Assembly (NCBI RefSeq): GCF_024362785.1
Contig: NZ_CP093301.1
Coordinates: forward strand, 4,278,001-4,342,000
Reading direction: 5' to 3'
Source: Evansella sp. LMS18
GTDB lineage: Bacteria > Bacillota > Bacilli > Bacillales > Salisediminibacteriaceae
DNA length: 64,000 nt
Shown: piece after piece, positions 6,358 to 58,234 of the stretch
How positions within the stretch are numbered: the stretch's first letter is position 1
Layout of the letters: each line of letters opens with the position of its first letter
Made by a program: the position numbers and the translations under genes
Notes under the pieces: generated by a model
What the model was told of the DNA's origin: nothing
What the model saw: only the letters and a program-made list of their open reading frames with translations
Database searches by the model: none

Positions 6358-6369
6358 GGAGGGAGCAAA

Positions 6370-7853: not shown

Positions 7854-7884
7854 TATGTTTGTCGTATTGTTTGTATGAAAAATG

Positions 7885-7918
7885 AAGCAGTGGAGGAGTC
7901 CTTCACTGCTTATTTTTA
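7885..7918 (+). terminator. Terminator after srlB
   Basis: AAGCAGTG/CACTGCTT stem with an 11-nt loop and a T-rich tail. It separates the core sorbitol operon from the transaldolase-family gene. Read-through is possible because no clear promoter is visible before the next gene. Confidence 0.7.
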
Positions 7919-7961
7919 TAAGATTAATTATATAAACTTATGAAAAAGAAGGGAGCTAACA

Positions 7962-8639: not shown

Positions 8640-8700
8640 TCGTATTGATATTAAATAAAATAATCAATGTTATTTGAAGATAGGATAGGAGAGGAATAAA

Positions 8701-9366
8701 ATGATAAAGGCACTTATATTTGATTGTGATGGCTTATTAATTGATACAGAGACAGTACAGTATCATGCTTTCTGTGAAATTTATGAATCCCATGGACTCG
8801 ATTTACCGTTAGATTTATATGTTCAGTGTGTTGGGAGTTCGTTTGCTGATTTTGATCCTTATAACCATTTGAAGATAAATTCAGCTAAAAACGTAGACCT
8901 TGATGAAATGCAGGCAGAGTTGACTGCCAAAATAACTGAAGCTATGAAAAAAGAAAAATTACGCAATGGTGTACAAGAATACTTAGAAACCGCAAAGGAA
9001 AAAGGCTTAAAAATTGGATTAGCTTCGAGTTCCGGCAGAGAGTGGGTATTAGGACATTTAGAGAAATTTGATATCATTAAGTACTTTGACATTATTCACA
9101 CAAGAGAGGACGTAGAAAAGGTAAAACCTGATCCTGAGCTATACAATAAAACATTATCTTATCTTGGTGTTAATGCAAACGAGACTATTATCTTTGAAGA
9201 CTCTTTAAACGGCTTAAAGGCAGCAAAAGCAGCTGGTGCTTCCTGTGTCATCGTCCCTAATAAAGTAACAGCTAAGTTACCTTTTGAAAATCATGATATT
9301 AAACTAGATTCTATGTCGGATAGAAATTTAGACGAATTAATAAAAGAAGTCGTGGAAGTTTTATAA
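8701..9366 (+). CDS. HAD-superfamily sugar phosphatase / beta-phosphoglucomutase-like hydrolase
   Basis: 221-residue HAD hydrolase with a helical cap. Motif I is FDCDGLLIDTE at residue 7, motif II is LASSSGRE, motif III is the lysine in EKVKPDPELY, and motif IV is IIFEDSLNG. The family dephosphorylates small sugar phosphates or phosphoglycolate-like compounds, and B. subtilis YhcW is a likely relative. It lies 61 bp after the transaldolase-like gene with a GGAGAGG ribosome binding site, so it probably shares its transcript. A role in removing side products of sorbitol catabolism is inference only. Confidence 0.8.
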   Translation: MIKALIFDCDGLLIDTETVQYHAFCEIYESHGLDLPLDLYVQCVGSSFADFDPYNHLKINSAKNVDLDEMQAELTAKITEAMKKEKLRNGVQEYLETAKEKGLKIGLASSSGREWVLGHLEKFDIIKYFDIIHTREDVEKVKPDPELYNKTLSYLGVNANETIIFEDSLNGLKAAKAAGASCVIVPNKVTAKLPFENHDIKLDSMSDRNLDELIKEVVEVL

Positions 9367-9387
9367 TTCATAGTTTGAAATACTTAA

Positions 9388-9480
9388 GCTGAAAGATAAT
9401 GTAATTGAGCGGGTGAGAGGTAAGGGAAAGGATACTGAAAGCAGGTGTACCAAATGGCTGAGGGTGGCCAGTGACAGGCA
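9388..9480 (+). repeat. Dispersed repeat family B, copy 1
   Basis: Begins GCTGAAAGATAATGTAATT and continues with GGATACTGAAAGCAGGTGTACC and GGTGGCCAGTG. Related copies lie at 21058 and 25485. It runs straight into a family A element at 9484. It is noncoding. Confidence 0.7.
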
Positions 9481-9483
9481 CCG

Positions 9484-9570
9484 TGATAAGAAGATAAGTT
9501 ACCCAGTTTGAGTACGTACTCATTTTGGGAACTTATCTTTTTTCATAGATATATAATATGGCTACTTGTT
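9484..9570 (+). repeat. Dispersed repeat family A (GATAAG hairpin element), copy 1
   Basis: Contains AAGATAAGTT...AACTTATCTT as a long hairpin with a T-run, followed by AATATGGCTACTTG. Four further copies in the same orientation lie near 26703, 41955, 60341 and 61562. The hairpin could work as a terminator for the HAD gene. Confidence 0.75.
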
Positions 9571-9748
9571 CAGTGCTGCATTTTTGCTTTTAGGAAGCAG
9601 AAGGAGAATTTCCTGATTCGTCTGCTATAATAGATGGAAGATACTAGAGGAAAGTGTGTATGAAGAGCCAGATTCAGTTAAACAGAATACTCTATTTAGA
9701 AAAGAAAACAGTAAATTAAGTGGAATATCGTTTAATTATGGGGGATTT

Positions 9749-10462
9749 ATGAAAAAAATAATTAAAATTTGCAGCATAACCATCATAATACTGATTGCTG
9801 TAAGTTATTTATTAAATGAATTATCTCAATCAAGAACGTTCCAATTCTTTGGTGGTTTAGTTACCAGTGTAGAAACAGACGAGAAAGTTGTAGCTTTAAC
9901 GTTTGACGATGGGCCTGGGGTAAATACACATGAAATATTAGATATATTAAGAAAACATGATGTGAAAGGCACTTTCTACTTAACAGGATATGAGATTGAA
10001 AAATATTTAGATGATGCGAGTAAAATAGTGGATGAAGGACACGAAATTGGTAACCATTCTTATTCTCATCAAAGAATGGTTTTTAAATCTCCATCTTTCA
10101 TTAAAGAGGAAATAGAGAGAACGGATGAATTAATAAGGCAAATCGGTTATGAGGGAGAAATCACTTTCCGTCCGCCTTATGGAAGAAGGTTAGTTTTGCT
10201 GCCGTATTATCTATCCATGCAAGACAGGGATACGATTTTTATGAATCTAGAGCCTGAATCTTATCCTGAAGTTGCTGATGATGCTGATGAAATCGTAAAC
10301 CATGTAGCAGAAAAAATAAAACCTGGTTCAATCATTTTGTTGCATGTCATGTATGAAAGCAGAAGAGAATCTCTCAATTCAGTAGAAGGTGTTATTACTA
10401 CTTTAAAAGAGGAAGGGTATACATTTGTAACAATTTCAGAACTCTTAGAATATGGACTTTAA
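9749..10462 (+). CDS. Polysaccharide deacetylase family protein, membrane-anchored
   Basis: 237-residue NodB-homology protein with an N-terminal membrane anchor or signal (about residues 5-22), so it acts outside the membrane. Deacetylase motifs are TFDDGP, HEIGNHSYSH with the metal-binding HxxxH, RPPYGRR, and ILLHVM near the C-terminus. Such enzymes remove acetyl groups from chitin-like or peptidoglycan glycans. The ATG at 9749 is preferred because it immediately precedes the hydrophobic anchor. The frame stays open upstream to 9656, adding 31 hydrophilic residues without a good ribosome binding site. It stands alone, with a terminator after it. Confidence 0.85.
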   Translation: MKKIIKICSITIIILIAVSYLLNELSQSRTFQFFGGLVTSVETDEKVVALTFDDGPGVNTHEILDILRKHDVKGTFYLTGYEIEKYLDDASKIVDEGHEIGNHSYSHQRMVFKSPSFIKEEIERTDELIRQIGYEGEITFRPPYGRRLVLLPYYLSMQDRDTIFMNLEPESYPEVADDADEIVNHVAEKIKPGSIILLHVMYESRRESLNSVEGVITTLKEEGYTFVTISELLEYGL

Positions 10463-10490
10463 GAAAGATTTTAACTTCTTGTAGTGAATG

Positions 10491-10522
10491 CGTTCCTGTC
10501 ATGAAAAGGAACGTTTTTCTTT
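10491..10522 (+). terminator. Terminator after the polysaccharide deacetylase gene
   Basis: CGTTCCT/AGGAACG stem with a 9-nt loop, followed by TTTTTCTTTTTT. Confidence 0.75.
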
Positions 10523-10614
10523 TTTCAGATGAAAAGAATTCAATGATAAGGTTTTAAACACTTTGCTTTGACTAACAGCGGCAATGATTGATTGATTATA
10601 TACTTTCTCAAAAT

Positions 10615-10648
10615 AGCATTGATCTAAAGAAGGATTAATGCTTTTTTT
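10615..10648 (+). terminator. Terminator-like hairpin in the ilvD upstream region
   Basis: AGCATTGATC/GATTAATGCT stem, 8-nt loop and seven T residues, 134 bp before ilvD. I see no T-box motif and no obvious leader peptide, so I cannot say whether it attenuates ilvD or is a second terminator for the upstream gene. The rest of 10523-10781 shows nothing I can name. Confidence 0.65.
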
Positions 10649-10781
10649 GTTGAAGTATGTTGTATGATGAATTAATATTCTTAATTTTTGAATAAAATCT
10701 TACAAAACTTCAGTATCTTTTCAAGTTGAGGGGTTGTTTTTTCGTTTTTAAAATTATAAAGATGAAGGAGAATGTGTTCAA

Positions 10782-12452
10782 ATGAGTAAAAATATTTCAA
10801 AAAGCCGTAGTTCCGTTTTTAACGATATTAACCGTGCCCCAAATCGTGCAATGATCAGGGCAATGGGGATTAATGATGAGGACTTTAATAAACCCTTTGT
10901 AGGAATTGCTAGCACATGGAGTGAAGTTACACCGTGTAACATGCATATTGATAAGTTAGCTCTAAAGACAAAGGAAGGAACTTTAGAGAATGGGGGAACT
11001 CCTTTTATTTTCAATACGATTACAGTATCAGATGGTATCTCTATGGGAACTGAAGGGATGCGTTATTCATTACCGAGTCGGGAAGTCATAGCGGATTCTA
11101 TTGAAACAGTAATCGGTGCTCAAAATTATGACGGTGTTGTAGCTATTGGTGGATGCGATAAAAATATGCCAGGATGTATGATTGCGATAGGACGTTTAAA
11201 TTTGCCGTCTGTATTTGTGTATGGGGGAACAATTCGACCCGGAAAAGCAGATGGGAAAGACATAGATATTGTTTCTGCGTTTGAGGCAGTCGGAAAATAC
11301 AATAATGGAGATATAGACCGTGATGAACTACATAAAATTGAGTGTCAGGCCTGTCCGGGAGCTGGGTCATGTGGCGGGATGTATACAGCAAATACAATGG
11401 CCTCGGCCATCGAAGCAATGGGAATGAGTCTGCCAGGAAGTTCTTCCAATCCAGCTGAAACGAAAGAAAAATTAACAGATTGTGCAGAAGCAGGCAAAGC
11501 AGTGATGAATTTACTGGATAAAGGGATTACTCCAAAGGATATTATGACTAAACAAGCGTTTGAGAATGCAATCACAGTTGTAATGGCTCTTGGTGGATCT
11601 ACTAACGCAGTACTCCATTTACTTGCTATTGCTCATACAGTTGATGTTGACCTTGACTTAGATGATTTTGAGCGGATCAGAGAGCGTGTGCCGCATATTG
11701 CAGATCTTAAACCAAGCGGGCGATATGTTATGGAAGACTTGTCAGAAATTGGAGGCGTGCCGGGAGTAATGAAATTACTTCTTGAAAAGGGGCTTCTTCA
11801 CGGTGATTGTATGACAGTTACTGGGAAAACACTCGAACAAAATCTTGCGGAAGTGGAACCATTAAGAGAAGGTCAGGAAATTATCTCTTTTGAAAATCCT
11901 AAGCGCAAAACAGGGCCTTTAGTTATTTTGAAAGGAAACTTGGCACCTGAGGGAGCTTTAGCAAAAATGTCCGGATTAAAAATAAAAGAAATAACCGGCC
12001 CTGCTCGTGTGTTTAATACAGAAGCAGATGCTACTGAAGCTGTGTTAAACAATGAGATTAATTCAGGAGATATTATAGTGATCCGCTATGTAGGTCCTAA
12101 GGGTGGCCCAGGGATGGCTGAAATGCTGTCTATTACTGCCATCGTAGTCGGAAAAGGTTTAGGCGAAAAGGTCGGTTTAATAACTGATGGTAGATTTTCA
12201 GGAGGTACACATGGATTAGTCGTTGGTCATATTTCTCCTGAAGCACAGGTCGGTGGACCAATAGCATTAATTAAAGAAGGAGATATGATAACGATCAATA
12301 GTGAGACTCAGGAACTCCAGGTCGATATTTCACCAGAAGAATTTGAGGTAAGAGCAAAGGAATGGTCTGCTCCACAACAAAATTTAAAAGGGTATCTTTC
12401 TAAATACGCACGTTTAGTTTCCTCGGCATCGAAAGGGGCAATAACTGATTAG
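10782..12452 (+). CDS. ilvD: Dihydroxy-acid dehydratase
   Basis: 556-residue IlvD. It dehydrates 2,3-dihydroxy-isovalerate and its methyl homologue to the keto acids of valine, isoleucine and leucine synthesis. Iron-sulfur ligand motifs are CDKNMPGC and [19 protein letters not shown], and the C-terminal half has GRFSGGTHG. Length and full-span conservation fit a functional enzyme. No other ilv or leu biosynthetic gene is adjacent. The ATG at 10782 follows GAAGGAG at a slightly long spacing of about 12 nt. Two hairpins follow the gene. Confidence 0.95.
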
Positions 12453-47454: not shown

Positions 47455-47682
47455 TGTGATTCCAAAAAATATTTTTCAAAAGCTTCTGCCATCGATGTAT
47501 CTACTGAGGAAGAATTACATCAATATATTGAAAACACTGCTAAGAAATTAGCGGTCCCGGGAATGCAGGTTGCCATAGCTCATAAAGGTGAACACATATA
47601 CAGTGAAGCTTTTGGTGAGAATGTGGATCACAATAGCCGCTTTACTAAGATAGTTTGTTTAATAATAGAAAGCTTCTCATAA
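47455..47682 (+). pseudogene. N-terminal remnant of a beta-lactamase-family serine hydrolase
   Basis: The frame reads AIDVSTEEELHQYIENTAKK, then LAVPGMQVAIAHKGEHIYSE and AFGENVDHNSRFT. This is the start of class C beta-lactamase-like hydrolases just before the SxxK active site. It stops 14 codons later and the catalytic domain is gone. There is no start codon or ribosome binding site in frame, only a stop upstream. The stop codon lies inside a strong terminator hairpin. Confidence 0.7.
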
Positions 47683-47873: not shown

Positions 47874-48764
47874 TTATACTTTTACACAGTCAGCTTTAGA
47901 TACCATTCCTGGAAGGGGGCGACCTATAATGTTTTCTATCCAATGTGATGTTTTTATTAATTCTTCGAGGTTTAAATTTGTGTCTGCCGACATCCGGTGA
48001 AACATATTTACCATATCTTCTGTACACACATTACCCACAGCTTTCGGTGCGAAAGGGCAGCCTCCCAGCCCTGCTATGGAAGAATCGAATGATTGTACTC
48101 CTGCCTGGTATGCTGCAAGGGTATTAGCCAGTCCTAACCCGCGTGTATTATGAAAATGAAGCCTCAGCTCAATTTCTTCACCAAATGCTTTAACAAATGA
48201 CTCCGTTACTTGCTTTACTTGCAGGGGGTTCGCCATACCGGTTGTGTCTGCAAGTACAATTTCTTTACAGCCTGCCTCGATAAACGAATTAGCAATACTA
48301 AACACTTTATCAATTGAAACAGAGCCCTCATATGGACATCCGAAAACCGTTCCTAGTACTCCTGCTGGTTTTCTGCCAGCCCTCTCTGTTTCCAAAATTA
48401 CTTCCACCAATTCTTCCTGTGATTGTTTTACAGATCTTCTTGCATTCTTAAGATTGAATTGTTCACTTACAGCCAGAACGACATTTACAGTATCGATTTT
48501 TGTATTCAAAGCCCGATCAAGACCTTTCCGGCTTAAAACCAGGCCAGAATAACTTACTTCCGGGTGGGAGGGGATACTATTCATTACTTGTTCTGCATCC
48601 GCCATTTGAGGTACGACTTTTGGATTGACGAAAGAAACTGCTTCAATTTTTTTAATGCCAGCCTTAATCAGCCTGTTAATGAGTTCAACTTTATCTGCAG
48701 TAGAAACAATCTCTTTCTCATTCTGCAGACCATCTCTGGGACCAACTTCACAAATATTAATCAT
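47874..48764 (-). CDS. Hydroxymethylglutaryl-CoA lyase family protein
   Basis: 296-residue DRE-TIM aldolase-type lyase. Motifs are VGPRDGLQNE near residue 7, HFHNTRGLGLAN near 200, and GLGGCPFAPKAVGNV with the catalytic cysteine near 233. The family cleaves HMG-CoA to acetyl-CoA and acetoacetate, or related 3-hydroxy-3-methyl acyl-CoAs. The ATG overlaps the stop of gntR (ATGA), so the two are co-translated. With the CoA-transferase across the divergent promoter it suggests CoA activation followed by carbon-carbon cleavage. The exact substrate is unknown. Confidence 0.88.
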   Translation of the reverse strand: MINICEVGPRDGLQNEKEIVSTADKVELINRLIKAGIKKIEAVSFVNPKVVPQMADAEQVMNSIPSHPEVSYSGLVLSRKGLDRALNTKIDTVNVVLAVSEQFNLKNARRSVKQSQEELVEVILETERAGRKPAGVLGTVFGCPYEGSVSIDKVFSIANSFIEAGCKEIVLADTTGMANPLQVKQVTESFVKAFGEEIELRLHFHNTRGLGLANTLAAYQAGVQSFDSSIAGLGGCPFAPKAVGNVCTEDMVNMFHRMSADTNLNLEELIKTSHWIENIIGRPLPGMVSKADCVKV

Positions 48765-49441
48765 AGTTTGCCCTCCTCTGTTTTATTATAAAGGTCATTT
48801 TCTTCAGTTAGCTTCAGCACATGGTCGCGACCTTGATAAATATGTTCTAACATTGCAGTTCTTGCTCTTTCATGATCCTGATTTAAGATTGCCTTTCTGA
48901 TAGTTTCATGCAGCTCATAGGAATGTTGTATTTGTCTATCGTTATACCAGTAGAAGGAACGAAACATAAGAGGTAGTACAGTTACATTAGTAATATGGAA
49001 ATGTAAATGTTCATTTTGCGATGCATCCAGCACAGCTTTATGAAAACTGCTGTTTACGTCCATAATCATCTTAATTTGATCAATATCTTTGTCGTTTTTG
49101 TTAAGTATTATTTCCTTAAAATCCTCGTTAGCAACTTTCATTCTCTTCAAGTGAATTTTATTTCTCCTGGAAGCAGCTTCTGCTGCGGCATACCCTTCAA
49201 GTAATGCTCTTAAATCATATATCTGCTTGATATCTTCTTTTGAGAACTTCCGAACGATTACTCCGCGTTTTAAGGGGGTAATAAGCCGTTCTGATTCTAA
49301 TCGCTTAATTGCTTCACGAATCGGTGTACGGCTGATTTGCAGTTCTTTTGCAAGATTTTGTTCTGTTAATCTTTCGCCTGGAGAATAATCCCCTAGTATT
49401 ATAGCTTTTTTAATGAATTCATAAGCGTCCATTTTTACCAC
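48761..49441 (-). CDS. GntR family (FCD subfamily) transcriptional regulator
   Basis: 226-residue regulator with an N-terminal winged helix (EQNLAKELQISRTPIREAIK, then RLESERLI) and a C-terminal FCD ligand-binding domain (DLRALLEGYAAAEAASRR, with metal-binding-type histidines in FHKAVLDAS and HEHLHFH-like positions). FCD regulators sense small organic acids. It is divergent from the catabolic operon and overlaps the lyase gene. Two perfect ATTGTATACAAT palindromes in the divergent gap are its likely operators. Confidence 0.9.
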   Translation of the reverse strand: MVKMDAYEFIKKAIILGDYSPGERLTEQNLAKELQISRTPIREAIKRLESERLITPLKRGVIVRKFSKEDIKQIYDLRALLEGYAAAEAASRRNKIHLKRMKVANEDFKEIILNKNDKDIDQIKMIMDVNSSFHKAVLDASQNEHLHFHITNVTVLPLMFRSFYWYNDRQIQHSYELHETIRKAILNQDHERARTAMLEHIYQGRDHVLKLTEENDLYNKTEEGKL

Positions 49442-49453
49442 CTCTCTGGAAAC

Positions 49454-49465
49454 ATTGTATACAAT
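49454..49465. promoter_or_regulatory. GntR operator palindrome 1
   Basis: Perfect ATTGTATACAAT, 13 bp upstream of the gntR start, so it should affect gntR-lyase expression. The sequence fits the TTGTATACAA-type sites of FCD GntR regulators. Confidence 0.75.
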
Positions 49466-49598
49466 AACAAAAATTTTAGCAATTAATAATAAATTTTAGA
49501 AAATTTAAACTCTACAAAAAAACACTAATGAAAGCTTTTATATCAATGTTAAACCAACATAATTGATAAATAGTAATGAATTTTTAAAATATTCTGTT

Positions 49599-49627
49599 TG
49601 ATTTATTGTATACAATAGTGGTATTAT
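49599..49627 (+). promoter_or_regulatory. Promoter of the CoA-transferase/hydantoinase operon with GntR operator 2
   Basis: TTGATT (49599-49604), a 17-bp spacer, then TATTAT (49622-49627). The second perfect ATTGTATACAAT (49605-49616) lies exactly between the boxes, so a bound GntR dimer would block RNA polymerase. The two palindromes are 151 bp apart centre to centre. Confidence 0.75.
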
Positions 49628-49657
49628 TTTTTTAACAAGTCATCGGAGGTGTAAACG

Positions 49658-50863
49658 TTGGAAGAAGAAAACCAATATCCATTACAAGGAGTAAGAGTAT
49701 TAGAATTAGGAACACTTCTGGCAGGCCCTTTTTCTGGAAGGCTACTTGCAGATTTCGGAGCAGAAGTAATTAAAGTAGAGCCTCCTGGAAAGTCTGATCC
49801 AATGAGAGACTGGGGTAAGAAGAAAGATGGAGTCGGCCTTTGGTGGCCTATCCAGTCACGAAACAAAAAGTCTGTAACATTAAATTTAAGGGAAGAGGCA
49901 GGGCAAAACCTTTTAAAAGATCTGGTAAAAGAATCAGATGTTATCATTGAAAACTTTCGACCAGGCACGATGGAGAAGTGGGGTTTGTCCTATGAGATTC
50001 TTTCTGAAATTAATCCGAAGATCATAATGGTTCGAACCTCAGGCTACGGGCAGACAGGACCGTATAAGAGCAGGGCAGGTTTTGGAAGTGTTGCTGAAGC
50101 GATGGGTGGGTTAAGGTATGTAACCGGCTTCCCTGACAGGCCTCCATCCAGGATAGGGATAAGTATTGGAGATACACTTGCAGCACTATTTGCAACAATT
50201 GGCTGCTTAACGGCTCTGCACGAACGTGAAAAGTCAGGTAAAGGACAAGTGGTTGATACTGCAATATATGAAGCTGTCTTTTCAGTAATGGAAAGCACAA
50301 TTCCTGATTACCTTCTGGCAGGGTATTTGAGAGAGAGGATGGGGAATATTCTTCCTGGTGTCTCACCTTCCAATATCTATTTAACGCAGGATGAAACTTA
50401 CATAGTTATCGGAGCGAATGCTGATGGGGTATTCAAAAGGCTTTGTCAGGCAATGGGACAGCCGGAACTGGCAGAAGAACCTGAATATGCTACTCATGAT
50501 GCCCGGGGTAAAAATATGAAAGAACTTGATGCTTTAATAGAACGATGGACGAAGTCTTTGCCTGCTAAAGATAGTCTTGCGTTATTGGAGGAATATGGTG
50601 TCCCTTCTGGTCTGATATACAGTACAAAAGAGATTGTTGATGATCCTCATTACAAAGAAAGAGAAATGATAATTAACGTGAATCACCCAGTTCTAGGTGA
50701 TTTTCCAATGCCTGGGATTGTACCAAAATTAAGTAGAACTCCTGGAAAAGTTTTAAGGCCTGGGCCTGAACACATGGGAAAAGATAATGAAGCCATATAT
50801 AAAGATCTTCTTAAACTTGATGAAGAAGAAATAATAGAACTAAAGGAAAAGAAAATTATATAA
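49658..50863 (+). CDS. CaiB/BaiF family (class III) CoA-transferase
   Basis: 401-residue family III CoA-transferase that moves CoA between acyl-CoA and a free carboxylic acid. The N-terminal VLELGTLLAGPFSGRLLADF then GAEVIKVEPPG is diagnostic. The catalytic aspartate is in GKGQVVDTAIYEAV near residue 190. The start is TTG at 49658, with GGAGGTG 7 nt upstream. It is the first gene of the right-hand operon. With the divergent HMG-CoA-lyase-type gene it suggests activation of a hydroxy-dicarboxylate such as HMG or citramalate, which is an inference. Confidence 0.88.
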   Translation: MEEENQYPLQGVRVLELGTLLAGPFSGRLLADFGAEVIKVEPPGKSDPMRDWGKKKDGVGLWWPIQSRNKKSVTLNLREEAGQNLLKDLVKESDVIIENFRPGTMEKWGLSYEILSEINPKIIMVRTSGYGQTGPYKSRAGFGSVAEAMGGLRYVTGFPDRPPSRIGISIGDTLAALFATIGCLTALHEREKSGKGQVVDTAIYEAVFSVMESTIPDYLLAGYLRERMGNILPGVSPSNIYLTQDETYIVIGANADGVFKRLCQAMGQPELAEEPEYATHDARGKNMKELDALIERWTKSLPAKDSLALLEEYGVPSGLIYSTKEIVDDPHYKEREMIINVNHPVLGDFPMPGIVPKLSRTPGKVLRPGPEHMGKDNEAIYKDLLKLDEEEIIELKEKKII

Positions 50864-50875
50864 GGGGATTTGCTT

Positions 50876-51484
50876 ATGCCAAAGGAGTTTGACGGGTTTG
50901 GGGAAAGATTAAGTTTTGGACAGAAGCCAGCTGTTCTAGTTGTAGATTTTATTAAAGGCTTTACAGACCCTGATTGTAAACTTGGATCTGAGCTAAGTAA
51001 AGAGGTACTAAATACATCAAAGCTGCTTGGGATTGCTAGAAATAAAGGGATTCCTGTTATTTTTACCACTGTAGTTTATGAGTCAAAAGAGGAGGGAGGT
51101 TACTTTATAGAAAAAATACCAGCATTAGAAGTACTGCAGCCTGAAAGCGAGTGGATTGAGGTAGATGAACGCCTGGAGAGGAGAAAATCCTCGGAACCTT
51201 TAATTACAAAGAAATTTGCCAGCTCTTTCTTTGGTACTAATTTGTCATCGATTCTTGCGTATCATCAGGCAGACACTTTAATTATTACCGGGTGTACAAC
51301 TTCAGGATGTGTACGTGCTACAGTAGTGGATGCCATCCAGCATGGTTATAAACCTGTTATACCAGAGGATTGTGTAGGTGATCGTTCAGCCGAGGCTCAT
51401 AATGCAAATATACATGACATCCAAACGAAGTATGGTGAAGTAGTTAAACTTGAATCTGTATGTGAGTTTTTAAAAAAGCTTTAA
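50876..51484 (+). CDS. Isochorismatase-fold amidase (N-carbamoylsarcosine/maleamate amidase-like)
   Basis: 202-residue cysteine hydrolase. The triad is visible as Asp in VLVVDFIKGF, Lys in ITKKFASSF and Cys in TTSGCVRATV. Members hydrolyse N-carbamoyl groups or short amides such as maleamate and N-carbamoylsarcosine. The ATG at 50876 has AAGGGG 8 nt upstream. It sits 12 bp after the CoA-transferase gene and just before hyuA. That is consistent with deamidating the ring-opened product of the HyuA/HyuB enzyme. Confidence 0.85.
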   Translation: MPKEFDGFGERLSFGQKPAVLVVDFIKGFTDPDCKLGSELSKEVLNTSKLLGIARNKGIPVIFTTVVYESKEEGGYFIEKIPALEVLQPESEWIEVDERLERRKSSEPLITKKFASSFFGTNLSSILAYHQADTLIITGCTTSGCVRATVVDAIQHGYKPVIPEDCVGDRSAEAHNANIHDIQTKYGEVVKLESVCEFLKKL

Positions 51485-51506
51485 TACCATTTGAGGAGGA
51501 AGCTAT

Positions 51507-53558
51507 ATGTATCGAATTGCCGTTGATGTAGGTGGAACATTTACAGATATTGTACTTCAAAATGAGTCGACAGGAGAGATTTATGGGACTAAAACTCCGT
51601 CTACTCCTGCTGATCAATCTATCGGGTTAATGACAGGGATAACAAAGATATGCGAGGAAAATAGTGTTGATATTGCTGAGGTGGAATCTATTATCCACGG
51701 AACCACTGTAGCGACTAATGCGGTGTTAGAAGGGAAAGGAGCTAAGGTAGGATTAATTACTACCGAAGGTTTTGAACAAGTCCTCCATGTGGCACGTTCC
51801 TGGACACCTGCTCCAATAAGTGCCTGGATGGGATTCCTCAAACCAGACCCCCTTGCAGATCTTATATACACACGTGGAGCTAAAGAAAGAATCACAGCTC
51901 AGGGAGATGTGTTAAAAGAATTGGATGAAGACCATATTCGTCGCGAGATTGAGTATTTATATGAAGAAGGCGTTCAAAGTTTAACTGTCAGTCTCATAAA
52001 CTCTTATGCTAATCCTGCTCATGAAGTGAGGATCAGAGAGATAGCTGAAGAGATTAATCCAGACATTCTTGTTACTATATCCTATGATATACTTCCTGAA
52101 TTCAGAGAGTACGAGCGGACATTAACCACAGTGATGAATTCCTATGTTCGGCCACCAATGCAAAAGTATTTAACTAATATTCAAAGTAAAATTGAAGAAC
52201 AGAAGCTTCAATGCCGAATCAGTATTGTACGCTCGGACGGTGGTTTAATGAGTATACCGGCTGCTTCATCACGACCAGTACATACAATGCTTTCCGGTCC
52301 ATCAGGCGGTGTGACTGCTTCTGCATCAATTGGAGCGCAAGCAGGTTACCGAAACGTCATCTCTTTTGATATGGGAGGAACTTCCACCGATGTTGCTCTA
52401 ACTTACGATGGGACTCCGAGGGTTGCAAGAGAAACAAAAGTGGGTGTCTTTCCTGTCAAATCACCATCACTGGAAGTGGTAAGTATAGGGGCTGGCGGTG
52501 GTTCCATCGCTCACGTTCCTCTAACTGGCGCACTCCGTGTTGGACCTCAAAGCGCCGGATCTGAACCTGGTCCTGCATGCTATGGACGAGGTGGAGAGGA
52601 GCCATCTGTAACAGATGCGAATGTTCTCCTTGGCTATCTTCCTCCAAGCCTTGTCGGCGGCGAAATGAAGTTAGATACAGAAGCCTCTAAAGTTGCAATG
52701 GAGAAAGTAGCTGAAAAGTTAAATACAGATGTTTATCGTGCAGCAAAGGGAGTTTATGACATTGTAAATGAAAATATGTATGGGGCTACCCGGGTAGTTT
52801 CCGTAGAAAAAGGATATGACCCACGGGAGTTTTCCTTAGTCGCACTTGGAGGCGCAGGACCACTTCATGCAAACGCGCTGGGTGAATTAACCGGATGTTT
52901 CCCTGTTATTGTTCCCCCAACGCCTGGAGTATTATCTGCCCTTGGTTTCCTGCAATCTGATATTAGAAACGAATATTCAAAAACATTTATCCATACCTTA
53001 AGCAATCTTTCCACAAAACAAATCGTTGATGAACTCTCAAGCTTGGGGGCCGAATGTGATAAATGGCTTGAAGATGAGAAGGTATCAGAAAAACAAAGGA
53101 CAATCAAATACGAAGTAGATGTACGTTATTTCAGGCAAGGTCATGAAATCCCAATGGAAGTTACGAGGGAGGAACTTGAACGGGACGGTTTAGTCAGCCT
53201 GAAGGAGCGTTTTGATTCCATTCATGAAAATAATTATGGATTTAAAATGGATACGGATGTTGAGGTAGTTAACATTAGAGCGGTGGCAGTAGGAAAAGTT
53301 CTTTCGCCAGCAATTCCACTCTCAGAACCAGGAGATACGGATTCTTCTCACGCCATCATTGATGAAAAACACCAGGCTTATTTCGATGGTAAATTTACAG
53401 ATACACCTATTTATGAACGAACTCTCTTAAAACCTAATAATGTTGTATACGGCCCTGCTGTAATAAGCCAGAAAGATACTACCACTCTAATTTTACCAGC
53501 ATATAAAGCGGAAATTGATAACTTTATGAACATTCTCATTCAGAAAGGAGATCTCTAA
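51507..53558 (+). CDS. hyuA: Hydantoinase/oxoprolinase family protein, subunit A
   Basis: 683-residue HyuA-type ATP-dependent subunit. The N-terminal VDVGGTFTDIVLQNE then HGTTVATNAVLEGKGAKVGL are diagnostic. DMGGTSTDVAL near residue 292 belongs to the nucleotide-binding fold, and GGAGPLHANAL is typical. Relatives open 5-oxoproline or N-methylhydantoin rings with ATP, or carboxylate ketones (acetone and acetophenone carboxylases). The ring-opening role is favoured because an amidase gene precedes it. It starts after TGAGGAGGAAG and overlaps hyuB by one base (TAATG). Confidence 0.88.
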   Translation: MYRIAVDVGGTFTDIVLQNESTGEIYGTKTPSTPADQSIGLMTGITKICEENSVDIAEVESIIHGTTVATNAVLEGKGAKVGLITTEGFEQVLHVARSWTPAPISAWMGFLKPDPLADLIYTRGAKERITAQGDVLKELDEDHIRREIEYLYEEGVQSLTVSLINSYANPAHEVRIREIAEEINPDILVTISYDILPEFREYERTLTTVMNSYVRPPMQKYLTNIQSKIEEQKLQCRISIVRSDGGLMSIPAASSRPVHTMLSGPSGGVTASASIGAQAGYRNVISFDMGGTSTDVALTYDGTPRVARETKVGVFPVKSPSLEVVSIGAGGGSIAHVPLTGALRVGPQSAGSEPGPACYGRGGEEPSVTDANVLLGYLPPSLVGGEMKLDTEASKVAMEKVAEKLNTDVYRAAKGVYDIVNENMYGATRVVSVEKGYDPREFSLVALGGAGPLHANALGELTGCFPVIVPPTPGVLSALGFLQSDIRNEYSKTFIHTLSNLSTKQIVDELSSLGAECDKWLEDEKVSEKQRTIKYEVDVRYFRQGHEIPMEVTREELERDGLVSLKERFDSIHENNYGFKMDTDVEVVNIRAVAVGKVLSPAIPLSEPGDTDSSHAIIDEKHQAYFDGKFTDTPIYERTLLKPNNVVYGPAVISQKDTTTLILPAYKAEIDNFMNILIQKGDL

Positions 53559-55327
53559 TGAAGAACATCGATTCTATTACTGTCGACATTATTGAGAACG
53601 CTATTAAAAATGTTAAAGAAGAAATGGATGTCACATTGTTTCGTTCCGCTATGTCTCCGGTAATCCGTGAACAGCATGATTGTTTCCCTATGATAACTGA
53701 CCGAGACGGGAAAATGGTAGTTGGTAATTTTGGATCTCATATTCCGGAAGTAATTAACCAGTTCCCGGAAGGTATCAATGAAGGTGATGTAATCTTTTTA
53801 AGCGACCCATACAGCTGTGGAGGTTCAATTTCACATATTAACGACTGGATGGTCATTATTCCTATTTTTCATGAAAAACAGTTAGTTGGCTATTCTTCTA
53901 TGTTTGGTCATGTGATAGACGTTGGGGGGCCGGTACCTTCAAGTATGCCTGTAACAGCACAAACAATATACGGTGAAGGGGTTCGTTTCCCTCCTGTTAA
54001 GCTCTTTGAAGAAGGAAAGCTTAATAAGGCGATTATTTCTATCATTAAAACAAATACGAGAACACCAGTTGAAAATTATAGCGATTTAATGGCAATTGTT
54101 GCTTCATGCCGCACGGCAGAAAAAAGAGTCCAGGAGATATGTGACAGATTCGGTAAAGAGGTATATTTTGAGGCTCTGGATGCACTGTTAGACAGAACAA
54201 ATGTAATGATGCGCCAGCTCATTCAGAATTTTCTGCCGGAAAAACCAGTTTCCTTTGAAGATTACATTGACGATGATGGACTGGGGAACGGGCCTTACAA
54301 AATGAAGCTTACGATTTGGCGAGAGGGAGATAACGCTTATTTTGACTGGGAGGGAACAGATAAACAATCACCAGGCCCGATAAACTATTATTTAAGTGAC
54401 AATATGTTCAAAATGTTTATCGGATCCTTCTTGATCTCTGTTTTTGATCCGGCAATTAACTTTAATGATGGGTTTTACGATGTATTGCATATCAAGACAC
54501 CTGAAGGTTCACTAATGAGACCAAAGCAGCCAGCTGCTCTTGGATGCCGCACACATGCTTTAAGCCGATTATTCGATGTACTTAGCGGAGCCTTATCAAT
54601 TAACACTCCTGAAAACAGTCCTGCTGCTGGTTATGGTACTAGTCCTTACTTTATCTATTCTGGTTACGATGATGAGGAGAAGTACTTTAATTTAATGGAG
54701 GTAATGTACGGAGGCTTGCCAGGAAGACCAATTGGCGATGGTCTGGATGGGCATTCCTGGTGGCCGGCTTTTGTAAATATACCAACGGAATATCTCGAAA
54801 CCTATTATCCGCTACTGGTGAATTACTACCGTACTGGAAAAGATTCAGGTGGGGCAGGGCTGCACAGGGGTGGAAACTGTAATGAAAAACTTTATACGTG
54901 CCTTGCTACAGGAACAGTTTCCATCCATGATGACCGGTCAACACTGCAGCCGTGGGGTATAAACGGTGGGGAACCTGGTTCGTCCTCTTCTAAAATGTTA
55001 ATTAAGAAGGATGGAACGAAAATCCCACTTGCCTCTAAGGTAGATAATGTTGAAGTAGAACGTGGAGACCAAATACTATTTATAACAGGAGGCAGCGGCG
55101 GCTGGGGTGATCCTTTAGAACGTGATCCTGAAAAAGTTCAGCTCGAAGTTGCCAGAGGACTTGTTTCTGCAGAAAAAGCTTATGAATCTTATGGTGTTGT
55201 GGTGAATACCGAAACATCCGAACTGGATACAGCTGCTACACTAAGTTTAAGAGAAAGGCTGAAAAACACCCGAGATCCTCTGGAAGCCTTTAATTTTGGG
55301 AAGCGAGAAGAAATTATTAAATCTTAA
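53558..55327 (+). CDS. hyuB: Hydantoinase/oxoprolinase family protein, subunit B
   Basis: 589-residue HyuB-type subunit, partner of HyuA. Characteristic stretches are FRSAMSPVIREQHDCFPMI, GDVIFLSDPYSCGGSISHIN then DWMVIIPIF, and GGSGGWGDPLERDPEKV at the C-terminus. It overlaps hyuA by one base, so the two are made in equal amounts. Length and motifs fit a functional subunit. A strong hairpin follows eight bases after its stop, before the enoyl-CoA hydratase gene. Confidence 0.88.
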   Translation: MKNIDSITVDIIENAIKNVKEEMDVTLFRSAMSPVIREQHDCFPMITDRDGKMVVGNFGSHIPEVINQFPEGINEGDVIFLSDPYSCGGSISHINDWMVIIPIFHEKQLVGYSSMFGHVIDVGGPVPSSMPVTAQTIYGEGVRFPPVKLFEEGKLNKAIISIIKTNTRTPVENYSDLMAIVASCRTAEKRVQEICDRFGKEVYFEALDALLDRTNVMMRQLIQNFLPEKPVSFEDYIDDDGLGNGPYKMKLTIWREGDNAYFDWEGTDKQSPGPINYYLSDNMFKMFIGSFLISVFDPAINFNDGFYDVLHIKTPEGSLMRPKQPAALGCRTHALSRLFDVLSGALSINTPENSPAAGYGTSPYFIYSGYDDEEKYFNLMEVMYGGLPGRPIGDGLDGHSWWPAFVNIPTEYLETYYPLLVNYYRTGKDSGGAGLHRGGNCNEKLYTCLATGTVSIHDDRSTLQPWGINGGEPGSSSSKMLIKKDGTKIPLASKVDNVEVERGDQILFITGGSGGWGDPLERDPEKVQLEVARGLVSAEKAYESYGVVVNTETSELDTAATLSLRERLKNTRDPLEAFNFGKREEIIKS

Positions 55328-55335
55328 TTAAAAAC

Positions 55336-55368
55336 AGAGGGGTGCTGCAATGGTTTGCAGCACCCTCT
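55336..55368 (+). other. Strong intra-operon hairpin between hyuB and the enoyl-CoA hydratase gene
   Basis: AGAGGGGTGCTGCA/TGCAGCACCCTCT stem (one bulged G) with a 6-nt loop. No T-run follows, so it is probably not a terminator. It may be an RNA-processing or stability element that sets different levels for the genes on either side. Confidence 0.6.
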
Positions 55369-55386
55369 ATATAGGTGGTGTCCCGA

Positions 55387-56169
55387 ATGGAGTATAAAAC
55401 TCTAAAAGTCGAAGTGTATAACAATGCGGCGAAAATAATTTTTGATCGACCAAGAGAAGGAAACAGTGTTTCACTGGAATTTGTTAAAGAGCTTGCGCAA
55501 ATTTCAGAAGTGCTCAAGAATGACCCCGAAATACGGCTGGTACTACTGACTGGCAATGGAAAGCATTTTTCCGTTGGCGGTGACTTAAAATCATTTGCAG
55601 CTGCTGGCGAAGAGATTTCCGCTCATCTTCGTGAGGTAACTCTTCACTTAAATGAGGCTGTATTAAATTTTGTGAGAATGAATAAACCAGTAGTTGCAGT
55701 TGTGAATGGAACTGTCGCAGGGGCAGGGATGGGATTGGTTTGTTCCGCAGACATTGTAATCGCCTCAGATAACTCACGATTTGTTATGGCTTATACAAAA
55801 GCTGGTTTGACTCCTGATGGGGGTACAAGTTATCTTCTGCCACGGTTAATTGGTTTAAGAAAATCAATGGAACTGGCTTTATTAAACAGAATGCTGACTG
55901 CAGAAGAAGCACTGGAATGGGGCCTAATAACCCGTACATGCAGCGAAACGGAGCTTGAAAGTACTGTTGATAGTTTAGTTGATACTATGGCAAGTGGTGC
56001 TGTTGAAGCTTTTGGAAAAACGAAAGACCTGCTATACAGCTCTTTGGAGGCTACTTTAGAAGATCATTTAGAGAAAGAGTCGCTCACTATTTCTGAGAAG
56101 GTATCCTCCCTTGAAGGAAAAGAAGGAATTACTGCGTTTTTAGAAAAGCGAAAGCCTAATTTCAACTAA
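55387..56169 (+). CDS. Enoyl-CoA hydratase/isomerase family protein, PaaG-like
   Basis: 260-residue crotonase-fold protein. The oxyanion hole motif [10 protein letters not shown] near residue 108 and the second catalytic position in [11 protein letters not shown] are visible. The Asp in place of the second glutamate is the PaaG-type arrangement, which favours isomerase over hydratase chemistry. The ATG at 55387 has AGGTGG 8 nt upstream; the GTG at 55375 overlaps it. It is followed 26 bp later by the LeuC-type gene in the same operon. Confidence 0.85.
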
Positions 56170-56195
56170 ATTGTAATGAAGGCAGGGATTCTTAT

Positions 56196-57617
56196 ATGGG
56201 TAAAACTCTATATGAAAAAATTTGGGATAAACATGTAGTAAGTCAGAGGGAAAATCAACCATCCTTACTCTATATAGATCTCCATCTTATTCATGAAGTA
56301 ACATCTCCACAGGCCTTTTCAGGTCTGCGTGAAAAAGGAAGAAAAGTACGCAGACCTGACTTAACATTAGCCACAATGGATCATAGTGTTCCAACATTAA
56401 ACAGGCAGTACCCTTTTGCTGACCCTGTCGCACAATTGCAGGTCGAAACGCTAAAAGGAAATTGCCAGGAATTTGGAATTAAACTCTATGATCTTGATAG
56501 CGATATGCAAGGGATTGTCCATGTTATCGCACCTGAATTGGGACTTACATTACCTGGACAGACAATGGTATGTGGTGATAGCCATACTTCTACTCATGGT
56601 GCTTTCGGAGCGTTGGCCTTTGGAATTGGGACAAGCGAAGTAGAGCATGTTTTTGCCACCCAATGTTTGAAACAGTATCCTTCTAAAACGTTAGCAGTAA
56701 AAGTAGAAGGCACTCTTTCTGAGGGTGTAACTGCAAAAGATTTAATCTTATCAATAATCGGGAAGTACGGTCATGATTTTGCTACCGGGCACATTATCGA
56801 ATACCAGGGAGAAGCCATAAGCTCTCTTTCTATGGAACAGCGGATGACTGTCTGCAATATGTCTATTGAATTTGGTGCGAGAGCTGGTTTGATTGCACCT
56901 GATCAAGTTACATTTGATTACTTAAAGGATAAAAAATTCGCCCCTAAAGGGGAAAGATGGGAAGAAGCAATAGAGGAATGGAAATTATTGTACAGTGATG
57001 GGGATGCGATATTTAATCGTGCTATAAATATTAATGCCAGTGAAGTGACACCACTGGTAACCTGGGGAACCAATCCGGGTCTGGTAGCTCCAGTTAATGA
57101 AAGCGTACCTGATCCCTTAACACTTCCAAGAGAAAAACAATCACTCGCTGCCAGTTCTCTTAAATATATGGACTTACAGCCAGGTACTTATATAGAAGAT
57201 ATACCAATTGATGTTGTTTTTATCGGTTCATGCACAAACAGCCGGATAGAAGATTTACGACTGGCGGCCAGAGTGGTAAATGGTTATAAAATAGCGGATA
57301 ATGTCCGGGGATTAGTAGTGCCAGGGTCTCAGCAAGTTAAAATGCAGGCTGAAAAGGAAGGATTAGATAAGATTTTTCTGGAAGCTGGTTTTGAATGGAG
57401 GAATTCAGGCTGCAGCATGTGTCTTGGGATGAATGACGATATTGTTCTTCCAGGCGAGCGCTGCGCCTCCACTTCAAACAGAAATTTCGAAGGCCGGCAG
57501 GGGAAGAATTCCAGGACACACCTGGTCAGCCCGTCTATGGCTGCTGCTGCTGCAATTAAGGGACACTTTTTTGATATACGGAAATGGGACTATAGAAAAA
57601 TGGAGCTGGTTAAATGA
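56196..57617 (+). CDS. 3-isopropylmalate dehydratase large subunit family (LeuC-like)
   Basis: 473-residue aconitase-family large subunit. It begins [15 protein letters not shown], with [36 protein letters not shown], and the iron-sulfur cysteines in [12 protein letters not shown] and [10 protein letters not shown]. Similarity to true LeuC is strong over the full length, and no leuA or leuB is adjacent. In this operon it may hydrate a different unsaturated dicarboxylate, as related maleate and citraconate hydratases do. AGGCAGGG precedes the ATG. It overlaps the small-subunit gene as ATGA. Confidence 0.85.
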
Positions 57618-58234
57618 AACCTTTCTCTATACATAAAGGGACAGTAGCACCTCTAAAGAGGGCGAATATAGATACTGGTGCTATCCTTCCAAAACAATAT
57701 TTAAAAAGAGTAGAAAAAAAGGGCTTTGGTCAATTTTTATTTCACAACTGGCGATTCCTTGATAACGGAGAAGATAACCCAGATTTTGTTTTGAATCAAC
57801 ATCCATACAGAGAAGCTTCCATTTTATTAACGCTTCAGAATTTTGGTTGTGGTTCATCAAGGGAACATGCTCCATGGGCTCTTGAAGACTTTGGCTTCCG
57901 AGTATTAATAGCACCCTCTTTTGCTGATATATTTTACAATAACTGTTTCAAAAATGGCATATTGCCAATTGAACTTCCACATAATCTGGTAAACGAGTTA
58001 TTCGAGATAGAAAGTAATGTAAGTATTTTTCATCTGGAGATTGATCTTGAAAAACAGATGATAACTGATGAAAAAGGGTTTACCGCAGAATTTAATGTTA
58101 ATCCTTTTCGAAAAGAGATGTTGTTAAAAGGCTGGGATGACATAAGTATCACTCTGAAAGATGCAAATGCTATTGAGGAATACGAGAGTACTCATCAAGT
58201 TTTTTATAATTTGAATACTTATTCGGAAAAATAA
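57614..58234 (+). CDS. 3-isopropylmalate dehydratase small subunit family (LeuD-like)
   Basis: 206-residue swivelling small subunit that completes the aconitase-type active site. The [19 protein letters not shown] motif is intact. In the N-terminal substrate region the usual NxDTDxIxPKQ reads [11 protein letters not shown], so a normally acidic residue is glycine, which could alter specificity. It overlaps leuC by 4 bases and ends the operon. No clear terminator follows before the T-box region, though 58235-58350 is AT-rich. The biochemical role is inferred. Confidence 0.85.

Follow-up and report, generated by a model that had tools for sequence, protein, structure and literature searches.

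Within the window, a 64,000-nucleotide stretch of the Evansella sp. LMS18 genome, all nine open reading frames of a locus arranged in two divergent units were found, and the family assignments previously made for the nine genes were upheld by Pfam and NCBIfam. The genes, together with two proposed operators, are as follows.

47874-48764, minus strand: lyase, HMG-CoA-lyase family; proposed (R)-2-alkylmalyl-CoA (citramalyl-CoA) lyase
48761-49441, minus strand: gntR, GntR-family (FCD) regulator of the cluster; PF00392 and PF07729
49454-49465, no strand: proposed operator 1, ATTGTATACAAT, near the gntR start
49605-49616, no strand: proposed operator 2, ATTGTATACAAT, upstream of caiB
49658-50863, plus strand: caiB, type III CoA-transferase (CaiB/Frc), proposed succinyl-CoA:(R)-2-alkylmalate CoA-transferase; PF02515, 427.7 bits
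50870-51484, plus strand: isochorismatase-fold amidase, PF00857; proposed alkylmaleamate amidohydrolase
51507-53558, plus strand: hyuA, ATP-binding subunit of an ATP-dependent cyclic amide/imide hydrolase; PF05378, PF01968 and PF19278
53558-55327, plus strand: hyuB, metal-site subunit of the HyuAB enzyme; PF02538, 481 bits
55375-56169, plus strand: crotonase-fold protein, PF00378; accessory, possibly an enoyl-CoA isomerase
56196-57617, plus strand: leuC, LeuC-type large subunit; proposed alkylmaleate (citraconate) hydratase; TIGR00170
57614-58234, plus strand: leuD, LeuD-type small subunit of the LeuCD hydratase; TIGR00171

As the earlier note had described, gntR and the lyase gene overlap by 4 nt, as do leuC and leuD (ATGA in both cases), and hyuA and hyuB by 1 nt (TAATG); the remaining same-strand gaps measure 6, 22, 47 and 26 nt. 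The nine genes include no redox enzyme or oxidase, no transporter and no enzyme that removes an amino group.

Conservation of the gene order in a related genome had been set as a test by the earlier note, and we found the identical nine genes in identical order in G234, a genome from another family of the same order, which argues that the arrangement is not due to chance. The locus consists of two modules, a back end of GntR-lyase and divergent CaiB, often with LeuCD, and a front end of HyuA, HyuB and the isochorismatase-fold amidase. The back end occurs alone in many relatives and the front end in few: when we surveyed 40 loci within the order, selected by a lyase match with an E value of 1e-90 or better and at least 50% identity, GntR and CaiB accompanied the lyase in 35 (LeuCD as well in 18 of those), both were missing from 5, and HyuAB plus the amidase was present in 3, G234 being the fourth such case. 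Plasmids of other phyla share part of the locus as a module. Seven of the nine genes (all except the crotonase gene and gntR) are together on the Geobacillus plasmid pGYMC5201, in a different arrangement and interrupted by an IS element. The crotonase lies outside the conserved core of the cluster, since similar genes were found in G234 (63%) and in the genome G021 (43%) and no match appeared in the other 40 survey stretches, in the Geobacillus plasmid stretch or in the HyuAB loci G724, G744 and G805. Its description as PaaG-like stands as to the crotonase family, but the resemblance to PaaG is only loose (TIGR02280 scores 173.5 bits, with the cut-off at 345); the protein is accessory and possibly an enoyl-CoA isomerase.

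Besides the window, 36 divergent loci were scored, and every one of them has the core palindrome TTGTATACAA in its gntR-caiB intergenic stretch; the palindrome was absent from the Acidiphilium, Rubrobacter, Peribacillus and Cupriavidus stretches and from those of the two Geobacillus plasmids. When one mismatch was tolerated, operator matches averaged 0.35 in shuffled windows, and two matches came up in 6 of 100 shuffles. Judging from its conservation, GntR may bind the two TTGTATACAA palindromes between the divergent units as putative operators, and TTGTATACAA in this position would offer a sequence tag for finding the regulon and screening for its inducer. In G021, the same palindrome is found between gntR and caiB-LeuCD and also ahead of an amidase operon that also encodes an alpha/beta-hydrolase, a protein of the AMDase/EutA family, the kin of maleate isomerase, and an FAD monooxygenase closest to HspB and PnpA. 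We read this operon as another way into a half-amide.

With a little less than even confidence, we propose that the locus serves the GntR-controlled catabolism of the cyclic imide of a 2-alkylmaleate, the simplest being citraconimide (2-methylmaleimide). HyuAB, spending ATP, would open the imide ring to an alkylmaleamate; the amidase, to judge by its family and active-site residues, would release ammonia from this half-amide and leave the alkylmaleate; LeuCD, which is paralogous to the isomerase of the leucine pathway, would hydrate the alkylmaleate to an (R)-2-alkylmalate, for example (R)-citramalate; CaiB, whose family fits the task, would load CoA on this acid, probably from succinyl-CoA; and the HMG-CoA-lyase-family enzyme would cleave the ester to acetyl-CoA and a 2-oxoacid, in the simplest case pyruvate. 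The last three reactions would be the first steps of leucine/citramalate synthesis in reverse. The chain of ring opening, deamidation, hydration, CoA activation and cleavage drawn in the earlier note is the best fit to the comparative data, with a lower half that is fairly firm; as its substrate we infer an imide. Cyclic imides such as maleimide are known to be degraded by a metal-dependent imidase and a half-amidase in a route that ends at fumarate or succinate; the proposed pathway has the same logic of imide, half-amide and dicarboxylate, but would employ the ATP-dependent HyuAB where the known route uses a cyclic amidohydrolase.

The Hydantoinase_A, Hydant_A_N and Hydantoinase_B domains were all found by Pfam in HyuAB of the window. 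HyuA carries the ATP motifs DVGGTFTD and DMGGTS, and Asp41, His93, Asp96 and His118 of HyuB align with Asp41, His99, Asp102 and His124 of CapB. Such ATP motifs and the Asp-His-Asp-His metal site are defined for HyuAB kin in the excerpted text of PMC8453981, where the substrates of the characterised members are lactams and hydantoins. The window enzyme shares these motifs, the metal site and the two-part ATP-dependent ring amide hydrolase design with CapAB caprolactamase and N-methylhydantoinase; however, it belongs to a separate clade and is linked to C-C lyases, not to amino acid release. Among solved structures, HyuA scores highest with N-methylhydantoinase 7hk5 (474 bits), next with caprolactamase (395 bits) and then with the carboxylases, and the caprolactamase equivalog scores of HyuA and HyuB (562 and 239 bits) did not reach the CapA and CapB cut-offs of 1000. 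In a tree with long reference branches and no oxoprolinase reference, 25 HyuA rows including the window formed one clade (100/100) apart from the characterised enzymes; acetone and acetophenone carboxylase were set off by a 100/99 branch, with the clade on the side of the hydrolases. The grouping with ketone carboxylases that the earlier note had named as a refuting result was therefore not what we found, and its main alternative, an acetone-carboxylase-like role, is not favoured. We consider a ketone carboxylase of the acetone/acetophenone type, beside which the amidase would be incidental, very improbable: the superfamily is common to both, but the carboxylases have a further small subunit that is missing among the nine genes, and the amidase is kept in 17 of the 25 HyuAB loci (missing in 8). 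The metal tetrad, for its part, is common to the carboxylases according to the excerpt of PMC8453981.

The use of ATP would fit a lactam, and HyuAB could accordingly open another nitrogen-ring product that has the oxidation state of an acid amide, such as a pyridone- or pyrrole-derived lactam, with the amidase and LeuCD acting later on a larger alkylmaleate side chain. Against our imide proposal, an ATP-dependent enzyme is unexpected because imide hydrolysis is thermodynamically cheap, and N-methylhydantoinase uses up ATP on some cyclic amides without hydrolysing them (excerpt of PMC8453981). Flavin oxidoreductases in the Rubrobacter, Acidiphilium and Neorhizobium stretches and the monooxygenase of the parallel G021 operon also point towards such a ring product, but the nine genes hold neither the oxidase nor an enzyme for the amine or aldehyde that would remain once a less oxidised lactam had been opened, and we regard this reading as distinctly unlikely.

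The closest solved chains of the amidase are 26st (N-carbamoylsarcosine amidohydrolase, the nearest), 4l07, which we take to be Ami, 4l08, 1nba and 3ot4/3uao, 3uao presumably being NicF, and its active-site residues Asp26, Lys114/115 and Cys147 are present. The 4l08 chain has an alanine at the position aligned with this cysteine. NicF/Ami and N-carbamoylsarcosine amidohydrolase have the isochorismatase subfamily and the Asp-Lys-Cys residues in common with the window amidase, which, unlike them, sits with HyuAB and LeuCD; in the amidase tree, Ami, NicF and both N-carbamoylsarcosine enzymes were interspersed, with no separate maleamate group. The main rival of our proposal, which we think unlikely, is that HyuAB opens a substituted hydantoin, the amidase takes off the carbamoyl group and the remaining enzymes degrade the carbon skeleton. 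The nearest solved relatives of HyuA and of the amidase speak for it, N-methylhydantoinase opening its hydantoin in creatinine breakdown, as does a hydantoin/allantoin-racemase-like gene in the HyuAB loci G744 and G805. Decarbamoylation would, however, give an amino acid, which no amino-group-removing enzyme among the nine could process, whereas LeuCD, CaiB and the lyase require a hydroxy-dicarboxylate; moreover, in G021 the palindrome is common to the amidase and to genes resembling those of pyridine degradation, a setting that suits a maleamate-like substrate better.

Returning to the alkylmaleimide proposal, its hydration step is assigned to a LeuCD pair that, like isopropylmalate isomerase, is full length and above the NCBI cut-offs (LeuC, TIGR00170, 781 bits against 560; LeuD, TIGR00171, 263 bits against 116), with the cysteine motifs SCTN and GCSMC in LeuC and the loop VEKKGFG in LeuD. 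In contrast to that isomerase, the pair is a second copy outside the ilvC-leuABCD operon and in a clade of its own: LeuC of the window and 20 kin grouped together (100/99), apart from the ilvC-leuABCD LeuC of the host, G021 and G234 (100/100), and the HyuAB-linked copies of the window, G234, G724 and G744 formed a subclade (97/96). The pair does not have the place of a leucine-biosynthetic LeuCD, as the host's ilvC-leuABCD copy lies elsewhere in the genome and in another clade. Of the earlier term "LeuC/LeuD-type dehydratase" the family holds, and a hydratase/isomerase of the isopropylmalate-isomerase type is the better description. LeuCD-type enzymes have malate-type acids as substrates, so that citramalate is to be preferred of the two hydroxyacids previously named, and neither hydroxymethylglutarate nor a methylglutaconimide-type substrate is favoured.

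The same point weighs against a methylglutaconimide route in which the lyase would be a true HMG-CoA lyase yielding acetoacetate, since HMG is not a malate-type acid. The lyase exceeds the HMG-CoA lyase cut-off (PRK05692, 330 bits against 246), and the solved chain 6nds, named HMG-CoA lyase, has the same HFHNT motif and falls on the window's side of the lyase tree. The human, B. subtilis and P. aeruginosa enzymes, however, branch apart from it (99/96) and have HxHDT where the window lyase has HFHNTRGLGLA, and the archaeal replacement lyase described below resembles LeuA. A dual use of the lyase is possible, since HMG-CoA and citramalyl-CoA can both serve as cleavage substrates for an enzyme from a different family (excerpt of PMC6689899); overall, we rate this route as very improbable.

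A further alternative, which we find quite improbable, starts from unsubstituted maleimide or maleamate and leads from maleate through D-malate and malyl-CoA to acetyl-CoA and glyoxylate. AMDase/EutA-family genes lie beside the module in G021 and Peribacillus, the latter also having an annotated tartrate dehydrogenase. Against it, HMG-CoA-lyase- and LeuA-family enzymes typically take tertiary alcohols, and an isomerase alone is enough to take plain maleate to fumarate, which would make LeuCD, CaiB and the lyase redundant. CoA-transferase work has reportedly been published for Chloroflexus, whose citramalyl-CoA lyase is said to be HMG-CoA-lyase-like. The excerpt of PMC8307300 names both succinyl-CoA:D-citramalate CoA-transferase and (R)-citramalyl-CoA lyase and records that EC 2.8.3.20 accepts (R)-malate too, in keeping with the unsubstituted route. 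These (R)-citramalate enzymes pair a type III CoA-transferase with the lyase as proposed for the window, which differs in that LeuCD and a front end for amide hydrolysis are joined to the pair under GntR. Itaconate degradation (Ict-Ich-Ccl) likewise turns a C5 dicarboxylate into acetyl-CoA and pyruvate, but it is (S)-specific and hydrates at the level of the CoA ester (excerpt of PMC9875883).

Among the 25 HyuA-clade loci, 21 contained at least one of three kinds of C-C lyase and 4 contained none of them. A CoA-transferase (CaiB match) was present in 13 of 13 loci with an HMG-CoA-lyase- or LeuA-family lyase and in none of the 8 with only an isocitrate-lyase/PEP-mutase-family lyase, a match that rests on three supported independent switches (p 0.25 in a sign test; four switches if the best tree is taken). 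Novosphingobium THN1, one of the 13, carries both lyase kinds, and its weakly similar lyase (39%) and CaiB (33%) lie about 3-5 kb from hyuA; LeuC and LeuD were both within the stretch read for only 6 of the 25 loci. In the haloarchaea, the lyases are similar to isopropylmalate/citramalate synthases (NF002085, 266 and 245 bits, below the cut-off of 517), which points to cleavage of a 2-alkylmalyl-CoA to acetyl-CoA and a 2-oxoacid.

In summary, we put forward as a possibility, held more tentatively than the function of the locus itself, a modular and mobile 2-alkylmaleimide pathway of bacteria and haloarchaea, in which a new HyuAB subfamily would act as an ATP-dependent imide hydrolase, a citramalate/isopropylmalate route of LeuCD, CoA-transferase and an HMG-CoA-lyase-type or LeuA-type lyase would run in reverse, and three C-C lyases would be interchangeable. 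As to natural substrates, we speculate on maleimides from the oxidative breakdown of tetrapyrroles or other N-heterocycles. If this is true, an uncharacterised HyuAB clade would gain a function, as would LeuCD and HMG-CoA-lyase copies whose present annotation is for leucine synthesis and HMG-CoA metabolism; the host's order would have a proposed route of citraconate/(R)-citramalate degradation; and a single ring-opening front end would be seen coupled, in bacteria as well as archaea, to C-C lyases of three different kinds.

The nine-gene locus is a real conserved unit. Profile matches upheld the family that the earlier note had assigned to each of the nine genes (47874-58234), which are present with the overlaps of 4 nt and 1 nt it described. 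The same note had let its reading hang on gene order in related genomes, and we found the nine genes in identical order in G234, a genome from another family of the order, at identities to the window of 84% for HyuA, 87% for HyuB, 87% for CaiB, 76% for LeuC and 75% for the lyase. By eye, the region 3' of the nine in G234 (3689-12000 of its fetched stretch L015) holds an SDR, a ketopantoate-reductase-like gene, a second GntR gene and an ABC transporter of the oligopeptide type, which may also belong to the pathway. In the window, positions 47480-47650 of the plus strand resemble, by eye, the beginning of a serine hydrolase with a beta-lactamase fold, which looks like a gene remnant. Among the matches listed, the closest plasmid relative was from Geobacillus (HyuB 80%). 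Plasmid pGYMC5201 of Geobacillus sp. Y412MC52 carries, downstream of a sigma-54 regulator, amidase, HyuA, HyuB, CaiB, lyase, an IS701 transposase, LeuC and LeuD, seven of the nine genes; crotonase and GntR had no match in the 27 of its 45 kb that were read. The host genome, a single contig of 4.9 Mb, holds two further HyuB-type genes and two more HMG-CoA-lyase-type genes (45% and 44%).

At a threshold of E 1e-90, the lyase was found at 42 places in 41 of 397 order genomes, host included. Apart from the window itself there are 41 such places; 40 of them were read (19.9 kb each, one 13.5 kb at a contig end), and the remaining one, the HyuAB locus of G234, was obtained separately. GntR and CaiB accompany the lyase in 35 of the 40 loci, LeuC and LeuD as well in 18 of these 35, and neither CaiB nor GntR is present in five. 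The HyuA-HyuB-amidase set occurs in only three of the 40 (genomes G724 and G744 with LeuCD, G805 without); G234 is a fourth case, and its second locus lacks HyuAB. Because of these counts, we regard the C-C-cleaving back end as common and the nitrogen-removing front end as an add-on. A sodium:solute symporter (28/40), an MFS protein (20/40) and a flavin-reductase-like protein (23/40), named from one scanned example per protein group, often follow the back end; the last (PF01613, scanned in two examples; e.g. 3586-4260 of locus L071) comes after the symporter and MFS genes among loci L055-L094. On another plasmid from Geobacillus, pBsrF30, of which 22.7 of 29.5 kb were read, the back end stands with an NMT1-type ABC transporter and no front end. 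At E 1e-150 or better, HyuB was found in two of 299 order-sample genomes, partly different from the 397, and in one of 398 phylum-sample genomes, the host being in both. Beside HyuAB in G744 (L103, 1098-2278) and G805 (L104, 16706-17893) lie SnoaL-like and Asp/Glu/hydantoin-racemase-family proteins, the former family scanned for G744 only.

The amidase scan of genome contigs gave one relative, in Arthrobacter, with no HyuAB found in 13 kb around it. In these 13 kb (L004, Arthrobacter sp. H16F315), two stretches are isochorismatase-like, and LeuC- and LeuD-like genes (56%, 33%) are present; LeuB-like, maleate-isomerase-like, old-yellow-enzyme-like and PEP-mutase/ICL-like genes were recognised by eye. 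The locus reads like a maleamate-to-D-malate route. Among phage records, only one of nine HyuA matches covers more than 80% of the query, a full-length match of 38% identity in MT835496.1 (116689-118749; 159 kb, human faeces).

Starting from HyuAB, we tabulated 25 loci by tblastn (E 1e-15), namely the window, four genomes and the best 20 of 926 plasmid records with a match, taking one HyuAB place per record with 6-14 kb of flank if the record was long enough; absences are therefore local. A lyase that would require a CoA ester is present in 13 loci (HMG-CoA-lyase family in 10, LeuA-like in three, all haloarchaeal), and in this set of the best 20 of 926 plasmid records plus five all 13 also have a type III CoA-transferase. 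Isocitrate-lyase/PEP-mutase kin cleave free acids; in eight loci such a protein is the only lyase, and a CoA-transferase match is absent from all eight. None of the three lyase kinds was seen in four loci, one of which, Rubrobacter, has a CoA-transferase. Lyase and CoA-transferase co-occur as the chemistry demands. The 25 include kin (eight Novosphingobium, seven haloarchaea) that are not independent; counted on the tree, the match amounts to three supported independent switches (four on the best tree), each of them in the direction expected (sign test, p 0.25). Strain THN1, one of the 13, carries lyases of both kinds: a PEP-mutase-like gene directly follows hyuB, and leuD-, lyase- and CaiB-like genes (39%, 39%, 33%) lie about 3-6 kb away from hyuA. 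In Haloterrigena and two Haladaptatus the HyuA-HyuB-amidase set stands alongside the CoA-transferase and a LeuA-like protein. The amidase is present in 17 of the 25 loci and LeuC with LeuD in six. From this table and the 40-locus survey, the crotonase was rejected as a core step.

In the HyuA tree the 12 cluster rows formed one clade (100/99), as did all 25 loci (100/100). The note's alternative of a carboxylase role for HyuAB was not borne out, both carboxylase references splitting off at 100/99; only the clade and carboxylase separations are used because these trees have long reference branches. Outside the clade, the more distant Neorhizobium HyuAB (HyuA 37%, HyuB 31%) neighbours MmgE/PrpD, a PrpB-like lyase, an isochorismatase-family hydrolase and a flavocytochrome-c/TcuA-like protein. 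The LeuC tree gave a clade of 21 rows (100/99), with the Geobacillus, Cupriavidus, Arthrobacter, Acidiphilium and Peribacillus copies outside it and the leucine-operon rows of three genomes, the host, G021 and G234, apart (100/100). Leucine synthesis was rejected for the window LeuCD on this separate clade and on the host's second LeuC, 65% identical, which sits in an ilvC-leuABCD operon. The LeuD loop reads VEKKGFG in the window, VEKKGYG in G234, MKKEGYG in G724 and G744 and VEKSGYG in G021, a genome of the host's genus, and RTGFG or RTGYG in both Geobacillus plasmids and in 12 of the 16 survey loci that have LeuD but lack HyuAB; judged from sequence, this difference may mark a different side chain. 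The draft assembly of G021 reads the cluster leuC in two frames (L008, contig C16, 10592-11988), by assembly error or damage.

The human, B. subtilis and P. aeruginosa HMG-CoA lyases (motif HxHDT) stand apart in the lyase tree (99/96), whereas the solved chain 6nds, although named HMG-CoA lyase, shares HFHNT with the window lyase and falls on its side. The Peribacillus lyase has HFHDT and adjoins the HMG-CoA lyases (99/93), though its gene lies beside CaiB and LeuCD. The note's hydroxymethylglutarate/methylglutaconimide version is disfavoured by this motif and tree, by LeuCD chemistry and by the LeuA-like archaeal lyases.

The palindrome TTGTATACAA was found in the gntR//caiB gap of all 36 divergent loci scored (34 of the 40 survey loci, G021 and G234), with at least two copies in 31, and in 28 of the 36 the stretch outside the gap has no further copy. 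Left out of this count were five loci without gntR or caiB, the non-divergent Rubrobacter locus and L082, where gntR and caiB are not adjacent and TTGTATACAA is present twice. The window has two copies:
49455, TTGTATACAA, first copy
49606, TTGTATACAA, second copy
Single copies mean little because genome-wide counts barely exceed the control: the decamer occurs nine times per strand in the host versus five for the reversed pattern, as often as that control in G234 and G724, and less often than it in G744. The case for a regulon therefore rests on position and not on abundance. The other seven host copies (1.5 kb each side, by eye) are scattered, several inside ORFs, and no further regulon member was recognised among them. 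G021 has an extra copy 181 nt upstream of an operon that encodes an amidase, a TAXI-TRAP transporter, an FAD monooxygenase (nearest solved relatives HspB, 161.5 bits, and PnpA, 160.3 bits), an AMDase/EutA-family protein, an alpha/beta-hydrolase and a crotonase, with HyuAB unmatched in the 15 kb read; this operon looks like an alternative, pyridine-degradation-like way into a similar amide. Novosphingobium capsulatum has one copy 39 nt ahead of its annotated gntR, and strain PP1Y has one ahead of the part of gntR that is conserved. No copy is present in the stretches read from Acidiphilium, Rubrobacter, Peribacillus, Cupriavidus and the two Geobacillus plasmids. Families, active-site residues, linkage and this shared palindrome are directly established.

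Every substrate of the pathway we infer. LeuA-family enzymes make a 2-alkylmalate from acetyl-CoA and a 2-oxoacid, and LeuCD converts 2-alkylmalate and alkylmaleate into each other. Run in reverse with a CoA-transferase, these steps would convert alkylmaleate via alkylmalate and alkylmalyl-CoA to acetyl-CoA and a 2-oxoacid, in the methyl case citraconate via (R)-citramalate and (R)-citramalyl-CoA to acetyl-CoA and pyruvate. An imide of the alkylmaleate is proposed as substrate because two C-N hydrolases lead and no redox enzyme is among the nine genes. Against the imide, its opening does not need ATP, and LeuCD adjoins HyuAB in a minority of loci, so that other loci may start from a hydroxylated imide or draw on the LeuCD of their own host. 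A hydantoin-type substrate for HyuAB and the amidase, unlikely as we judge it, keeps a small share because of these two points, the nearest solved relatives (named N-methylhydantoinase for HyuA and N-carbamoylsarcosine amidohydrolase for the amidase), the hydantoin/allantoin-racemase-like gene beside the module in G744 and G805 (nearest solved chain 3qvk, a putative hydantoin racemase) and an amidase tree that leaves maleamate and N-carbamoylsarcosine enzymes unseparated.

For the alkylmaleimide reading, a CoA-transferase and a lyase of the R series (citramalate) are both known (PMC8307300). The Pseudomonas itaconate genes are S-specific, and P. putida carrying them did not use citraconate or (R)-citramalate (PMC9875883), whereas the route proposed here would run through (R)-citramalate. 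CaiB, an HMG-CoA-lyase-family gene and LeuCD also stand together on a Peribacillus plasmid (L021) and on Cupriavidus necator N-1 pBB2 (L022), accompanied by an SLC13 permease or a tripartite tricarboxylate binding protein, and no gene nearby is annotated as amide-hydrolysing; both are candidate citraconate/citramalate utilisation loci. The host has a second dicarboxylate-type locus with a PrpB/PEP-mutase-family lyase (L009, about 1530000-1545000 of G000:C1), where TctABC-like transporter, IclR regulator, homoaconitase-type LeuC/LeuD (30%, 36%), amidohydrolase, MFS, isochorismatase paralogue (42%) and TAXI-TRAP genes were read by eye; it may encode a pathway resembling that for dimethylmaleate. 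Another route to pyruvate, that of riboflavin, was also compared, and the main text of its paper names neither hydantoinase nor isochorismatase. Among the titles and abstract openings listed for open-licence PMC papers, none reports the nine-gene set. Each enzyme family is already known; no description of the combination, of the HyuAB clade or of the regulon turned up in the open-licence papers searched. On our analysis, the locus would join amide-ring catabolism to a reversed citramalate route.
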